This document shows, in pieces, positions 37,734-42,627 of a stretch of DNA of 64,000 nt. Each line of letters opens with the position of its first letter. Within the stretch, counting starts at the first letter, position 1. The translations under genes and the position numbers were made by a program. Origin of the DNA: Ignavibacteriales bacterium (GTDB lineage: Bacteria; Bacteroidota; Ignavibacteria; Ignavibacteriales; SURF-24); contig JAPLFH010000025.1 of the NCBI GenBank assembly GCA_026390815.1, positions 1 to 64,000 on the forward strand. Reading direction: 5' to 3'. A model generated the notes under the pieces. The model ran no database searches. It was given only the letters and a program-made list of their open reading frames with translations, and was not told where the DNA came from.

Positions 37734-38072
37734 ATGAATACGAACAAAATTAAATTTGTTGTAATGTTAATTGCGCTTTTTACTTTTGTCTCTTTATCAA
37801 CAAGCGTTTCTGCACAAGTACAAGAAACAAAACAAACGAATCACGGACCACGATTTGTTGACGCAAATGGAGATGGAATCTGCGATAACATGATAGACAC
37901 TAATAATGATGGAATTCCAGATACCAGAAACGGAAAGGGAACTGGTCCAAAAGACGGTACTGGAAAAAAACATGGTTATGGTAACGGAAATGGAACAGGA
38001 ACTGGTTTACACCAAAATGGTACAGGAGTTTGTGATGGAACAGGACCAAAAGGTAAAAGAGGTGGAAAGTAA
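37734..38072 (+). CDS. Small exported Gly-rich protein with Asp-rich calcium-loop motifs
   Basis: The 112-aa protein has a signal peptide (KFVVMLIALFTFVSLSTSVSAQ), then two Asp/Asn loops of the thrombospondin-3/dockerin kind (VDANGDGICDNMID, TNNDGIPD). A Gly/Lys/Thr-rich tail with NGTG repeats follows. The loops should bind calcium. No enzymatic role is visible. The start has a good AAGGAG site, and a strong terminator follows, so it is a single-gene transcript. Confidence 0.87.
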   Translation: MNTNKIKFVVMLIALFTFVSLSTSVSAQVQETKQTNHGPRFVDANGDGICDNMIDTNNDGIPDTRNGKGTGPKDGTGKKHGYGNGNGTGTGLHQNGTGVCDGTGPKGKRGGK

Positions 38073-38098: not shown

Positions 38099-38136
38099 AA
38101 CCTTCAAGGTCTTTAACTACCTTGAAGGTTTTTATT
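38099..38136 (+). terminator. Strong rho-independent terminator between convergent genes
   Basis: A perfect 12-bp stem (AACCTTCAAGGT with its complement) closes an 8-base loop and is followed by TTTATTTTT on the plus strand. It ends the 112-aa gene transcript. The convergent sulfur-operon gene stops 2 bases from its right end, so the hairpin may serve both. Confidence 0.9.
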
Positions 38137-38137
38137 T

Positions 38138-39334
38138 TTAACATCCTCCAACTATCCGCTTTACTTGTTTTTTTTCTCCAGCAGTTTGCTTTAGTTTATT
38201 TTCTTTAATGAGTTCAGGAATAACCAGGTTTGCCTTTGTTCTAAAGCGATAAGTATCGGCTTCATTTCTACTATTTATTTTTTCAGGCATTTTAAAATTT
38301 AGAATATCCATTTTAAATTGATTCAAGCCTCCTTTAAGAACTAATACATCTTCAAAACCCAATTCTTTTGCAAGTACAGCGCCTTTTTTTGCGGTTACCT
38401 CTTCATTTGCAATAAAAATGTTTCTTTTATGTTTGAGCAAAAGAAGATTATGGATATCCTTTTCAAAAATATTTTCCAATGAAAAGTGATTTGATTTTGG
38501 CAGCGACATCGCATCAAATTCTTTTTGAGAACGTAAATCAATTATCTGCAGATTTTGGTCATCATCAATCAATCTGAAAGCAAGCTCATCACTTGTAATT
38601 GTTTTAATTGGATATCCGGCAATAAAGTTTTCATCGGAAACCTTTCTAAGCATTGCTCCTTTTCTATCAGGCATAGCGAAAGCGGAAAGCCCAATCAACA
38701 AGGCTATTGCCGTTAATCCGAAATAAAGCGGTTTAGAACTAAACTCAGGATTTGGTTTGCCGTTAACTTTATTCTCAATCAAAGTAACAGCCCAAAAAGC
38801 ACCAACAGCCATCGCAGTTAAAAGAAAAGCAAAAAGCGATTGCGACATTCCGAGTGTTTCAAATATTCTTGGACTTCCCCAGTTTGCTGATTTATATAAT
38901 CCTTCGAATAGTGGGTAGCCTTCTGCAAAAACAAAAACTCCTATGAACGACCCGCCAATAAAAATCATTGCATCTATTTTTCCTATGGCTGCGGCACAAA
39001 CACTTGTACCCGGGCAATAACCGCCGATAACAAATCCCAATCCCATTATCAATCCACCTACTAATGCAGACCAGAGGAAAGTTGGATTAACATAGACAAG
39101 CGAAATATCCAGCAATCCAAAATGATCGAATGCAACAACGCCAATCATAGCAGTAACGCCTCCGGTAAAGAAAACGCGAAGAACAGTAAAGTCGTATCCG
39201 TAAAAAAGTCCAACAAGTTTTTTAGATGTTGAGAAGCCGGCTTGTTCAAGTATAAAGCCGAATGCAATTCCAATGAAAAGCGCAACTACAAAATTTAATT
39301 CGTTTCCAATTACTTCCGGTACTAATGGTCCCAT
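38138..39334 (-). CDS. YeeE/YedE sulfur transporter fused to a Cys-less rhodanese-like domain
   Basis: The first 240 residues are a YeeE/YedE (TsuA-like) membrane domain with about eight helices and the conserved Cys motif GGYCPGTSVCAA. The C-terminal part (residues 250-350) is a rhodanese-like domain (TSDELAFRLIDD, LQIIDLRSQKEFDAMSLPKS, GFEDVLVLKGGL). The catalytic loop, normally C-x4-R, reads NEEVTAKKG, so it has no active-site Cys. The protein ends in KRIVGGC. YeeE/YedE proteins import thiosulfate or related sulfur species; the inactive rhodanese may bind or gate the cargo. It is the last gene of the octaheme cytochrome operon. Confidence 0.9.
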   Translation of the reverse strand: MGPLVPEVIGNELNFVVALFIGIAFGFILEQAGFSTSKKLVGLFYGYDFTVLRVFFTGGVTAMIGVVAFDHFGLLDISLVYVNPTFLWSALVGGLIMGLGFVIGGYCPGTSVCAAAIGKIDAMIFIGGSFIGVFVFAEGYPLFEGLYKSANWGSPRIFETLGMSQSLFAFLLTAMAVGAFWAVTLIENKVNGKPNPEFSSKPLYFGLTAIALLIGLSAFAMPDRKGAMLRKVSDENFIAGYPIKTITSDELAFRLIDDDQNLQIIDLRSQKEFDAMSLPKSNHFSLENIFEKDIHNLLLLKHKRNIFIANEEVTAKKGAVLAKELGFEDVLVLKGGLNQFKMDILNFKMPEKINSRNEADTYRFRTKANLVIPELIKENKLKQTAGEKKQVKRIVGGC

Positions 39335-39349
39335 CTTTATATCTCCTTT

Positions 39350-39865
39350 TTATAGCCACAGTTTTCTAAAAAAATATGCGACTGCATAAGCGCCACCAAA
39401 AATTGCGAACATTGTAATTATTCCACCGAAAGAAAGCACTGCCATCCCACTTAATGCTGCTCCACTGGTACAGCCTCTGCCAAGCTGTGCACCAAATCCG
39501 AATAATGCCCCGCCGATTAATGCTCCAACAACTCTAATTTTGCTTTTTATTTTTGGTGAGTGTTCAAGTGTAAATTTGAGGCGGTTTGAAATTAATCCCG
39601 AGATGAAAGCACCAATAACAACTCCTATCACTTCGAAGACCAGCCAGTTTTTTAATGGATTGCCAGGATGTTCTTCTGAGTACTCTTTATAAAATTTTGT
39701 TTCGGATGTATGTGCTGGTGTAACGGTTTCAACCGCTGCCACAACAGCGCTTTTAACGGCACCACTTGCACCAAGCCCTCTTCCGGTTATGTATATTGTA
39801 GCTAATAAAATCAAACCGAGAAAAAATCCGGCTAAATATGGATTCATATATTTTGTTTCATTCAT
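39350..39865 (-). CDS. YeeE/YedE-family sulfur transporter
   Basis: The product has four to five membrane helices and the family Cys motif in FGAQLGRGCTSGAALSGMAVL. It is a half-length partner of the longer YeeE/YedE protein encoded 15 bp downstream; such pairs are usual. The start at MNETKY (39865) leaves an 8-bp overlap with the cytochrome b gene. The upstream TTG/ATG at 39886 would overlap it by 29 bp. Likely cargo is thiosulfate or a related sulfur compound, by family. Confidence 0.9.
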   Translation of the reverse strand: MNETKYMNPYLAGFFLGLILLATIYITGRGLGASGAVKSAVVAAVETVTPAHTSETKFYKEYSEEHPGNPLKNWLVFEVIGVVIGAFISGLISNRLKFTLEHSPKIKSKIRVVGALIGGALFGFGAQLGRGCTSGAALSGMAVLSFGGIITMFAIFGGAYAVAYFFRKLWL

Positions 39866-40553
39866 TGGTAACCTCAACTTCAGCAATTTTTGTTTCGTTG
39901 GTTAATTCGCTTTTTTCTTGATGGTGTTTTTCTTTTCCATCGCTTTCCAATTCTTCATAACCGGTTATCATCGCTTTAAGATTAGAAGTAACAGTTGTGC
40001 CGGTTGTAATTAAGTAAAGATGAACAATTATAAAACCAAGTAGTAGGAATGCACCGGCTGTGTGGAAAAGTGCAATCACTTCAATTGAATCAATATTCAA
40101 TCCTTCTATTCCGCCTTTTTGTGGATAACGGTAAAACATGTATAACAATCCGGAAATAACCATTGTTGGAATCACCAAAATCTTCAAAGAAAGGTAGACC
40201 AATTTTTGAAGTGGATTGAGTTTGCTTAATACTGTTTTCTTTGTGGGATGCGGTGCGTTCCTAAAAATTCCAAACAAATAATAGTTTATCTGTGCTCTCA
40301 TATTCTTTACTGTTGGAAGGTATTGTCTCCACTCTCCGGTAGAAAAATGCCAGAAGATTGCGAATACAATTAAAACAATAAACGCATATGCTGCAATGTT
40401 GTGATACTTAACTGCATTTTGATATCCGAAAAAATTTATTGAACCGTGAATTTCAAATCCCGTTACCGCCATAAAAAAGATGATGATTGCCTGCATCCAA
40501 TGCCAGAATCGTTCGAAGGCTCTATAGATATATACTTTCTGTTTCATTATCAT
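39858..40553 (-). CDS. Membrane cytochrome b (Ni/Fe-hydrogenase / thiosulfate-reductase type)
   Basis: The 231-aa protein has four hydrophobic helices with His residues placed as in b-type cytochromes of respiratory reductases: ERFWHWMQAIIIF, YHNIAAYAFIVLIVFAIFWHF and VIALFHTAGAFLLLGFIIVHLYL. It should oxidise quinol and pass electrons to the octaheme cytochrome encoded just upstream, whose stop codon its start overlaps. The C-terminal 40 residues are charged and cytoplasmic. Confidence 0.92.
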   Translation of the reverse strand: MIMKQKVYIYRAFERFWHWMQAIIIFFMAVTGFEIHGSINFFGYQNAVKYHNIAAYAFIVLIVFAIFWHFSTGEWRQYLPTVKNMRAQINYYLFGIFRNAPHPTKKTVLSKLNPLQKLVYLSLKILVIPTMVISGLLYMFYRYPQKGGIEGLNIDSIEVIALFHTAGAFLLLGFIIVHLYLITTGTTVTSNLKAMITGYEELESDGKEKHHQEKSELTNETKIAEVEVTNE

Positions 40554-42124
40554 CCTCTCTTTTTCATTTTGCGTGAAGAAAAAATTCTAATTGTCCCGTG
40601 AGCAAAAACTCCAATAAGTGATAGCACCAAAATACCGCCGCCTGCAAATTCTATAAACGGACTGAAATCTCGTGCCGGCATGTAGAAATCTTTTAATCCA
40701 GCCAAACGGCTGTTATCGCGGGTATGGCATTCATTACACGTAACAGATTTTTCTTTCGATGAAACCATGTGATTAACAGGCCAATACATTTCTGTTTGAA
40801 TAAAAGCAACTTTGCCGCTGAATGGAAGATTAACATCTTTCATCCCAACTTCAGAAGCACGAATCCAATCGAAATCTTTCCACAGAGCTCCTTCACCTTT
40901 TTTTTCCGCATAAAGTTTTGGTTGAATTAACATTTTTGTAACCGGGTCAAATGGCTGCTTTGCCCTGTGAATTTTTACAGGAGTAATTTTAGAATCTCTG
41001 TCATCGTACGAACCGTTTAGTGTGTTAAGCACCAATGGCACTGAGGTATTGGCAACTGAATCGCCTAAGAGATAATGAGTTGCTGTTCCATTAAACCAGA
41101 TATAATCCGGTTTAAGATTTTTTCCCCACTTAAAATTTCCTTTGATAGATAGATAAGTGTGGTTTCCCTCTTTATCATCTTCTTCATAGGGATTGCCATC
41201 TTTAAGTTTACCGGCAGTAGACCAATCCCAATCAGTCTTGGTTGCATTTACTTTTGCATAAACCGGAATGTGGCAGGTTTGGCAAGCTACTTTTAAAGTA
41301 TGCTTGTTCAGGATTGAACTTTCATGAGGATTTTCAGAATGACACTCTTCGCAGGTAGCTCGGTTACGGTTCATCGAAGAAAGTGAGTACATTTTTCCGC
41401 TGATGTTATGCTTTTCTGTTTTGTGGCAATCAATACATTGCAAATTCATTCCATCGGTTCCCATATGAACATCAACTTCTTTAGATGGTTCAAACATTGC
41501 TTTTTCAAGATCGCCATGTTTTACGTTGTTGCCACCTCCGCCAAAAAAATGGCATACTCCGCAATTAGATCTTTTAGGCTCGCCAACATGTTGGGCAATG
41601 TTTGAAAAATCCAGGGTTAAATCCGGGGCGCCGCCTTTTTCCGGAGCCTTTGCATAGGTCTCCGTATTATCATGGCAAACAAGGCAATCAATGTTTGTGG
41701 AATCTGTATAAGAAAAAGTTTTGGAATCTTTCATCCCATAGCCAATATGGCATTTGGCACAGCTTGCTTCGTTTCCTTCTGTACCGATGCAGAAATTGTT
41801 AATTGCATTTTTTTTACCAAGATACACTATTCCGCGTCCTTCAACATATTCCTCGCGTTCCCAATTCCAGTGCGTGGATTTCATTATCTCCTGTGCACGT
41901 CCATTGTGGCACGAAAGGCATGCTTCCGTTGCTTCTTGCGGAGTCTTAAATTTTTTCTGAAGCGCTGCAAATTTAGTATGATCAACTGAAGGTGCTGTTT
42001 TTTTTGATAACCTGGTTTTTAGCAAAGTTAATTGGTCCGGTTCGGTTTCTTTAGAGGAAAGAAAACTTACCGCACTTACAATCAATATGCCTAATAGTGC
42101 CAGTGATATAAGAATTTTTTTCAT
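40550..42124 (-). CDS. Octaheme c-type cytochrome, tetrathionate reductase (OTR) family
   Basis: The 524-aa protein has an N-terminal signal anchor and eight CxxCH haem motifs, from CLSCH near residue 69 to CNECH near residue 465, and a C-terminal membrane helix (GGGILVLSLIGVFAH). The spacing and the text around the motifs (NFCIGTEGNEASCAKCHIGYG, CGVCHFFGGGGNNVKHGDL) are those of octaheme tetrathionate reductase. Enzymes of this type reduce tetrathionate, and some also nitrite or hydroxylamine in vitro. Here the companion sulfur transporters favour a sulfur substrate. It acts in the periplasm with electrons from the cytochrome b. Confidence 0.93.
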   Translation of the reverse strand: MKKILISLALLGILIVSAVSFLSSKETEPDQLTLLKTRLSKKTAPSVDHTKFAALQKKFKTPQEATEACLSCHNGRAQEIMKSTHWNWEREEYVEGRGIVYLGKKNAINNFCIGTEGNEASCAKCHIGYGMKDSKTFSYTDSTNIDCLVCHDNTETYAKAPEKGGAPDLTLDFSNIAQHVGEPKRSNCGVCHFFGGGGNNVKHGDLEKAMFEPSKEVDVHMGTDGMNLQCIDCHKTEKHNISGKMYSLSSMNRNRATCEECHSENPHESSILNKHTLKVACQTCHIPVYAKVNATKTDWDWSTAGKLKDGNPYEEDDKEGNHTYLSIKGNFKWGKNLKPDYIWFNGTATHYLLGDSVANTSVPLVLNTLNGSYDDRDSKITPVKIHRAKQPFDPVTKMLIQPKLYAEKKGEGALWKDFDWIRASEVGMKDVNLPFSGKVAFIQTEMYWPVNHMVSSKEKSVTCNECHTRDNSRLAGLKDFYMPARDFSPFIEFAGGGILVLSLIGVFAHGTIRIFSSRKMKKRG

Positions 42125-42180: not shown

Positions 42181-42627
42181 TTATTTTACCGCATAACTTT
42201 TAATTAGCTCTTTTACTTTTCCACATTCAGAATAGTTTTTATAAACCTCACAATCACGGCATCCTCGTTTTTCGCAGATTGTTCCTTTATGAATTTCCGC
42301 CCAACACGCCTGATTATGTGAGTTGAATGCACTGCACTTCTTCCTGTCCCTTTCAGAACAATGAATTATTTCCCAGCAGGGAATAAGCGAATAGATTGTT
42401 TTTATTCCATTGATGCTAATCTTCAATTCATTTATTGCTCCTCGGATGCATTCAATCCGTTCAATATCGTCTTTAGAGAAAAGTCTTTGGTTAGATTCTT
42501 TTTTAAATGGAACGAATAAACCTTCTCTTTCATACATCCGGATAGTATGAACAGAAATTTTTAGCAGTTTTGCGGCAGCACTGATTGGAAATATCGGTTC
42601 TTCTTTGGCAATATCTATTTCTTTCAT
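42181..42627 (-). CDS. MerR-family regulator with C-terminal cysteine cluster
   Basis: The N-terminal 80 residues are a MerR winged helix (FPISAAAKLLKISVHTIRMYEREGLFVPF, NQRLFSKDDIERIECI). The C-terminal 70 residues hold eight Cys in a two-CW-like pattern (PCWEIIHC, CSAFNSHNQACWAEI, CEKRGCRDC). Such clusters can bind an iron-sulfur centre or sense redox or sulfur species. The gene lies 56 bp upstream of the octaheme cytochrome gene on the same strand, so it is the likely regulator and first gene of the sulfur operon. Confidence 0.9.
   Translation of the reverse strand: MKEIDIAKEEPIFPISAAAKLLKISVHTIRMYEREGLFVPFKKESNQRLFSKDDIERIECIRGAINELKISINGIKTIYSLIPCWEIIHCSERDRKKCSAFNSHNQACWAEIHKGTICEKRGCRDCEVYKNYSECGKVKELIKSYAVK

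Follow-up and report, generated by a model that had tools for sequence, protein, structure and literature searches.

Why should a membrane protein that joins half of a sulfur channel to a rhodanese domain without its catalytic cysteine carry a cysteine as its very last residue? The question is raised by a 398-aa protein encoded in the window, by which we mean the whole 64,000-nucleotide stretch of DNA that was analysed. Its gene is the fourth of an operon with the order OTR – cytochrome b – YeeE1 – YeeE2-rhodanese, where OTR denotes an octaheme cytochrome of the tetrathionate reductase family. The features on which the argument draws are as follows.

38138..39334, minus strand: YeeE half-channel fused to a Cys-less rhodanese, C-terminal GGC (398-aa ORF, Pfam, homologue alignment).
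38672..39292, minus strand: six hydrophobic segments (residues 15-221), a putative half of a YeeE/TsuA channel with C107 and C113 (hydropathy; profile match to TsuA).
38309..38563, minus strand: rhodanese domain, residues 258-342 (Pfam; AlphaFold; structure comparison).
38408..38410, minus strand: codon of A309, the rhodanese catalytic position, non-Cys in 82/83 homologues (alignment).
38141..38179, minus strand: C-terminal arm, residues 386-398, pLDDT <50, ending KRIVGGC (AlphaFold, alignment).
38141-38143, minus strand: Cys398 codon, within the C-terminal arm (sequence).
39350..39865, minus strand (ORF opens at 39886): YeeE1, the complementary half-channel, with invariant C139 in ORF numbering (Pfam, profile match to TsuA).
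39858..40553, minus strand: cytochrome b561-type subunit (PF01292), without conserved Cys (Pfam, alignment).
40550..42124, minus strand: octaheme cytochrome of the tetrathionate reductase family, with hydrophobic N- and C-terminal segments and invariant non-haem C112 (TIGR04315, hydropathy).
42181..42627, minus strand: MerR-type regulator with nine Cys, upstream of the operon (Pfam, alignment).

Pfam recognises Sulf_transp (PF04143; residues 34-211, E 8.5e-13, 49 bits against a cut-off of 27) and Rhodanese (PF00581; residues 258-342, E 4.7e-10, over the cut-off) in the 398-aa protein and nothing else, the SoxY domain PF13501 being absent. In the AlphaFold model the ten-residue blocks covering residues 231-380 have mean pLDDT values of 80-94, and structure comparison of this rhodanese part with 6mxv gave a VIA Z of 15.3 (rmsd 2.2, 113 residues); the two approaches agree, confirming the predicted rhodanese fold. 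The rhodanese loop reads NIFIANEEVTAKKG and places A309 at the catalytic position, so that the Cys by which rhodanese sulfurtransferases are recognised is absent. The last 13 residues, ending KRIVGGC, are predicted to be disordered. The channel part of the model is of low confidence (pLDDT mostly 40-75). TsuA was not among the matches listed in the structure comparisons, which covered the rhodanese part only, and phmmer with the whole protein retrieved no PDB chain at E 0.001; profile searches did match.

The family sample comprised 110 loci, 80 from a search with peptide patterns that excluded the tail and 30 from a search with the whole 398-aa protein, the genomes being partly shared. Taking the best ORF per locus, dropping three contig-truncated copies, merging duplicates and including the window gave 83 distinct homologues. 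Cys398 is present in 83/83, within an end that reads GGC in 80, VGC in one (L008) and GGCG in two (L061, L068), and the catalytic position is occupied by Cys in a single homologue (L042, FVCYDG). C107 is found in all 83 and C113 in 81; D266-x-R268 and other rhodanese positions are conserved in at least 95%; several of the positions that separate the last helix from the KR-x-x-GGC end are freely variable. As for background, a Cys lies in the last four residues of 44/462 ORFs (≥150 aa, from 42 loci), and by eye 36 of these are arms and 8 are unrelated proteins. The complete conservation and low background rule out the tail as a chance feature or artefact. The earlier note, made from the letters of the window alone, had described a rhodanese half that keeps its fold signatures, lacks the catalytic Cys and ends in Gly-Gly-Cys, and this description is borne out. 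The note had further proposed checking whether Cys loss and the GGC end are conserved together; absence of the catalytic Cys coincides with a Cys tail in 82 of the 83 homologues and, with few exceptions, in the wider set described below. An active-site Cys, which it had taken as evidence to the contrary, occurs once, in L042, where the tail is kept as in all the others.

That wider set consists of 88 rhodanese proteins and excludes L001-L080, which are counted in the 83-homologue set; also dropped were L125 (frame change), L243 (cut by the locus end), ORFs of <100 aa and copies with identical last 100 residues. Fifty-one proteins have the tail and no catalytic Cys, 35 have the catalytic Cys and no tail, one has neither (L293) and one has both (L231, with three rhodanese domains of which the last is Cys-less), giving a Fisher p of 3e-22 in which shared descent is ignored. 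Sorted by neighbourhood and listed as tail only, neither, both and catalytic Cys only, the counts are 50, 0, 0 and 1 for rhodaneses with YeeE and a reductase, 0, 0, 1 and 2 with YeeE only, 1, 0, 0 and 2 with a reductase only, and 0, 1, 0 and 30 with neither; the first label was assigned by hand to the short loci L111-L126, L242, L251, L260 and L283, whose reductase lies outside the stretch read. Thus the tail is absent from all 31 rhodaneses linked to neither YeeE nor a reductase, and the catalytic Cys is present in 30 of them. From these counts, the thiol seems to have moved from the rhodanese loop to the arm.

The setting of the fusion gene is conserved too. All four operon genes, in the same order, are found in 107/110 loci (78/80 from the pattern search). 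Of the other three, L005 lies close to the end of a contig and has its YeeE1 broken in two, L079 is a fusion where a contig ends, and L092 repeats L012 over a shorter length. The OTR gene of the window scores 580 bits with TIGR04315 (cut-off 375), encodes eight CxxCH motifs and matches 1SP3 by profile at E 1.7e-128, which places its product in the tetrathionate reductase family, with the activity putative. For the b561-type protein the best model is thiosulfate reductase cytochrome b, at 105 bits and under the cut-off of 204. Each of the nine Cys of the MerR-type regulator is found in 18 or 19 of 19 homologues, and its relatives precede both of the reductase types described here.

Several further observations concern the gene cluster itself. 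L079 222-1835 (plus strand) encodes YeeE1 and YeeE-rhodanese in one ORF, without the first helix of the second, as either a natural fusion or an assembly error, and an alignment built on it superposed the two homologous YeeE halves. The YeeE-rhodanese gene of L213 consists of two overlapping frames, the second still with the GGC end; a split YeeE2-rhodanese gene and a split OTR gene occur in L213 and L268. Window positions 37734-38072 (plus strand) encode a Gly/Asp-rich 112-aa protein with a signal-like start, whose homologues adjoin the module in L036, L109 and L132 (the last a molybdoenzyme-type operon). Between two convergent genes, at 38100-38139, the window holds an inverted repeat, ACCTTCAAGGT...ACCTTGAAGGT, followed by T's, which is likely a terminator.

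The whole-protein search also brought up 16 loci in which shorter YeeE genes precede a rhodanese encoded on its own. Fifteen encode an intact Cys-less rhodanese ending EGC, which in L117 is fused to YeeE2; in the sixteenth, L125, the gene is broken by a frame change and its second piece ends KKKKREGC. This split form, consisting of YeeE, YeeE and an anchored Cys-less rhodanese ending KKKREGC, rules out that the arm is peculiar to the YeeE-rhodanese fusion. It accompanies PhsA-like molybdoenzyme operons: ten wide neighbourhoods (L127-L136) contain a molybdoenzyme whose N-terminal part bears an SRRKF-type motif, together with a 4Fe-4S protein and NrfD, and the best NCBIfam model for the L128 molybdoenzyme is thiosulfate reductase PhsA (533 bits, cut-off 694). 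Matches came from three phylum-level genome sets. Since the split form lies beside molybdoenzymes, the arm accompanies two unrelated reductases. Beside the molybdoenzyme-type operons, L128 (15967-19051) and most of L129-L136 also encode a fusion of cytochrome b with an 11-haem cytochrome, accompanied in several loci by a Rieske protein, possibly a quinol-oxidising complex related to Ext proteins.

How regularly the arm accompanies these operons was counted next to YeeE pairs. A near-terminal Cys, in the form GGC, EGC, GGCG or GGCGG, is borne by some subunit in 22/22 OTR operons and 32/32 molybdoenzyme operons with a YeeE pair (54/54 in total). These counts leave out L269 (cut by a contig end) and L242, L251 and L260 (operon partly lacking); L243-L246 repeat the genomes of L136 and L252-L254; and the L235 arm (ending SGGCG, on a Pfam rhodanese) escaped the profiles and was taken from the ORF list. 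Least open to bias is the sample drawn with the OTR model only, 20 loci from 19 genomes hand-picked across genera from 43 over-cut-off matches in 40/296 genomes: the 14 with a YeeE pair are all armed, and of the 6 without YeeE none is armed among the profile-matched ORFs. Loci outside these 20 were hand-chosen from matches of a profile that includes tail columns.

In 26 of the 32 molybdoenzyme operons the arm is on the rhodanese or on a domain replacing it, and in 6 it is on the molybdoenzyme itself, ending EGC or GGC (the second operon of L136, L233, L252, L253, L254, L267), which rules out that the arm is always on a rhodanese. In those 6 operons the rhodanese is not in the stretch read or, in L233, has a catalytic Cys. 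A tree of 35 molybdoenzymes (midpoint root) groups the 6 armed ones with three that are without YeeE, away from the other 26, and in five of the armed-molybdoenzyme operons (L136, L233, L252-L254) YeeE1 and cytochrome b561 form one protein, as checked with Pfam for L136 and L233. Pfam detects a rhodanese over the cut-off in L228, just under it in L230 and none in L236, L261 and L262, where the tail Cys persists. The arms of L236 (7299-9669, plus strand) and L230 (7631-9929, plus strand) have SoxY-like Gly runs ending GGCGG, that of L230 reading GGGGCGG, and in L238 and L259 YeeE2 bears a further Cys near its end.

The association has exceptions on either side. Among molybdoenzymes without YeeE, no arm was found in L256 and L257, and in L258 an armed rhodanese adjoins the molybdoenzyme with no YeeE in 15 kb, so the arm is not quite strictly tied to YeeE. 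Of the YeeE pairs with no reductase in view, L239-L241 are unarmed and L231, where no reductase was found in 18 kb, is armed. L258 and L231 indicate that neither YeeE nor a reductase is strictly required for the arm. The L231 ORF (10153-12274, minus strand; 707 aa) begins, by eye, like a metallo-beta-lactamase, contains several rhodanese domains, ends KKRKSVGC and adjoins the YeeE pair.

The YeeE pair itself resembles a channel cut in two. By profile, the 398-aa protein aligns with the first half of TsuA (TsuA 5-92, 8j4c; E 0.0025) and YeeE1 with the second (TsuA 237-329; E 2.2e-5); C107 pairs with TsuA C91 and YeeE1 C139 with TsuA C293, and the first TsuA Cys (C22; Ala in the mutant chain 8j4c) is aligned with the invariant Gly33. 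The transporter part had been credited with keeping its Cys motifs, which holds for C107 and C113; it is, however, only half a channel, and with Gly33 in place of the first Cys and the channel split over two genes, the three channel Cys do not occur in one chain. The TsuA equivalog model did not match the 398-aa protein and gave YeeE1 57 bits against a cut-off of 400, the selenium YedE models scored far under cut-off, and YeeE1 modelled alone had a pLDDT of 57. The window genome (99.96% complete) had 0 matches to the TusA family (PF01206), for which the control matched in 11/14, so the known cytoplasmic acceptor or exit partner of YeeE is missing here.

On which side of the membrane the arm lies was approached through charge. 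With the N-terminus outside, mean K+R over the 83 sequences is 0.13, 0.07 and 1.63 in the outer loops and 2.0, 1.0 and 3.9 in the inner ones, and these positive-inside counts favour an outside C-terminus; the case is weakened by the stretch directly after the last helix, which would then be outside and has a mean of 3.19 K+R (and 3.77 D+E). The split rhodaneses have a single N-terminal hydrophobic segment with more K+R before than after it in 9/14, equal numbers in 3 and fewer in 2, counting 15 residues after the anchor in windows that include further K/R at the start. The hydrophobic ends of OTR would, by hydropathy, fix it in the membrane so that the haems face outwards. On these grounds the rhodanese is more likely to be periplasmic than not.

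The answer that we consider probable is that the periplasmic pseudo-rhodanese, with its SoxY-like Cys swinging arm, serves a membrane-bound sulfur reductase complex as its carrier and dock and shuttles sulfur between reductase and YeeE. According to this model, YeeE1 and the YeeE half of the 398-aa protein would form one TsuA-like channel, with the rhodanese and arm located in the periplasm beside the haems. The pseudo-rhodanese would act as a scaffold, and the terminal Cys, on its arm of ~13 residues, would covalently take up a sulfur species, either sulfane sulfur or a thiosulfonate. The arm would then swing back and forth between the active site of the reductase and the channel opening on the periplasmic side, where it could replace the first TsuA Cys (Gly33 here), and be reset by the reductase. 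Sulfur could flow either way, for import of the product or delivery of the substrate to the enzyme. The earlier note had offered cargo binding, gating or a swinging-tail persulfide carrier; the swinging-tail carrier is the best supported, because Cys loss and tail co-occur, the tail is predicted to be disordered, and the tail appears on another subunit where no tailed rhodanese is present; the cargo could be a persulfide, a thiosulfonate or another species. Several points count against a carrier: the low-confidence channel model, the ambiguous membrane side, L258 and L231, the lack of a TusA-family match, L042 with both Cys, and the OTR of Shewanella, which is active on its own and is not known to have an arm of this kind.

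Besides the haem Cys, the only conserved thiols across the four operon proteins are OTR C112, YeeE1 C139, C107, C113 and C398, so that outside OTR a partner for the terminal Cys would be a channel Cys (C107, C113 or YeeE1 C139). This would suit a redox gate, the pore being plugged through a disulfide between the arm Cys and one of the channel Cys until electrons arrive from the reductase; we nevertheless judge it improbable, because a pore plug hardly explains the six arms borne by molybdoenzymes or the L258 arm without YeeE in the fetched stretch. If instead the partner were C112, the one invariant non-haem Cys in OTR (76/76), the terminal Cys might be a structural tether, joining transporter to reductase by a permanent disulfide, as arms in all of the 54 counted operons with YeeE pair and reductase might suggest. 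C112 is, however, equally conserved in the 6 OTR loci that have neither YeeE nor arm and equals position 64 of 1SP3 by alignment, and the cytochrome b has no conserved Cys; a tether is slightly less likely than the gate. That the terminal Cys is a metal ligand or a processing or targeting mark with no sulfur role is very unlikely: the basic residues that precede most rhodanese tails (KKKREGC, KRVVGGC) could serve sorting, yet the tails of the molybdoenzyme form are acidic (EEEEGGC, SDEGC), no second conserved ligand is found in the tail, and tails cluster with sulfur-family proteins. Least likely of all, the rhodanese domain may hold sulfur oxyanions without a covalent bond, to sense them or to trap substrate, with the tail secondary. 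This would account for the conservation of D266-x-R268 and other rhodanese positions, but the loop is less well conserved than the tail Cys, which outlasts the Pfam rhodanese in L236, L261 and L262.

Returning to the proposed carrier, its closest parallel is SoxY, which according to excerpts of PMC5336275 holds covalent intermediates on a Cys swinging arm. The C151E primer printed there translates, in our analysis, as T-V-G-G-E-G-stop, from which wild-type SoxY ends GGCG. Both systems have a flexible Gly arm at the C-terminus that carries a Cys at its tip, with a GGCG tail in SoxY and in some arms here; the arm described here differs in being on a rhodanese fold, membrane-fused or anchored, beside YeeE and reductases. 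By analogy, we infer that the arm functionally copies that of SoxY on a different fold. The window genome had no match to the SoxY family, a weak negative as the control matched nowhere. In lucinid symbionts, as the consulted part of PMC11237559 describes, a divergent soxY (soxY-S3) and soxZ adjoin an otr gene, so that OTR is independently paired there with a Cys-arm carrier.

The other components also have known relatives. YeeE/TsuA and SoxT share PF04143 with the present proteins, together with the correspondence of C107 to TsuA C91 and of YeeE1 C139 to C293. YeeE-type transporters have three conserved Cys, and PmpA and PmpB align with full-length YeeE as two halves (both from passages of PMC11582611); the channel here is likewise split over two genes, as proposed for that pair, and differs in Gly33 and in having no TusA/TsuB partner in the genome. 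Passages of PMC11073785 propose the first TsuA Cys as the start of the relay and YeeD as the exit partner. OTR is structurally known and reduces tetrathionate, nitrite and hydroxylamine in vitro, leaving its natural substrate uncertain (PMC4911364, in excerpt). The OTR of the window resembles known ones in its TIGR04315 score and 1SP3 match but is hydrophobic at both ends and encoded with a cytochrome b, a YeeE pair and an arm; neighbours of otr in the excerpted literature are cytochrome b (PMC4911364), hydrogenase (PMC5317091) and soxYZ (PMC11237559). For the split form, the nearest comparison is with the known periplasmic rhodanese partners of polysulfide reductase, for example Sud. Sud-type proteins likewise place a rhodanese fold beside PsrABC/PhsABC-like enzymes, whereas the rhodaneses here are without the catalytic Cys and have the thiol on a terminal arm instead. 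We found no published description of the arm in the literature searched, which consisted of partial texts of papers other than subscription papers and preprints.

How sulfur is handed over from the periplasm to YeeE-type channels is an open question in the sections seen of PMC11582611, where transfer from SoxY along the SoxT cysteines is called conceivable and direct Cys-to-Cys transfer is doubted; a conserved arm would name the missing link. It would also point to a sulfur substrate for these OTRs, would mean, if true, that the SoxY solution arose on a second fold, and would serve as a sequence mark for spotting sulfur-reductase complexes in metagenomes, with a single residue, the last Cys, as the test point for the whole idea. 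More tentatively, and with the chances somewhat against it, several bacterial phyla may share an unrecognised sulfur respiration in which substrate and product are never free: a covalent Cys arm, exchangeable between pseudo-rhodanese and catalytic subunit, would relay sulfur directly between a haem or molybdenum reductase in the periplasm and the split YeeE channel of the same complex, making transport and respiration one machine. The presence of the arm beside two unrelated kinds of sulfur-respiring enzyme suggests an overlooked route of sulfur hand-over between enzyme and membrane.
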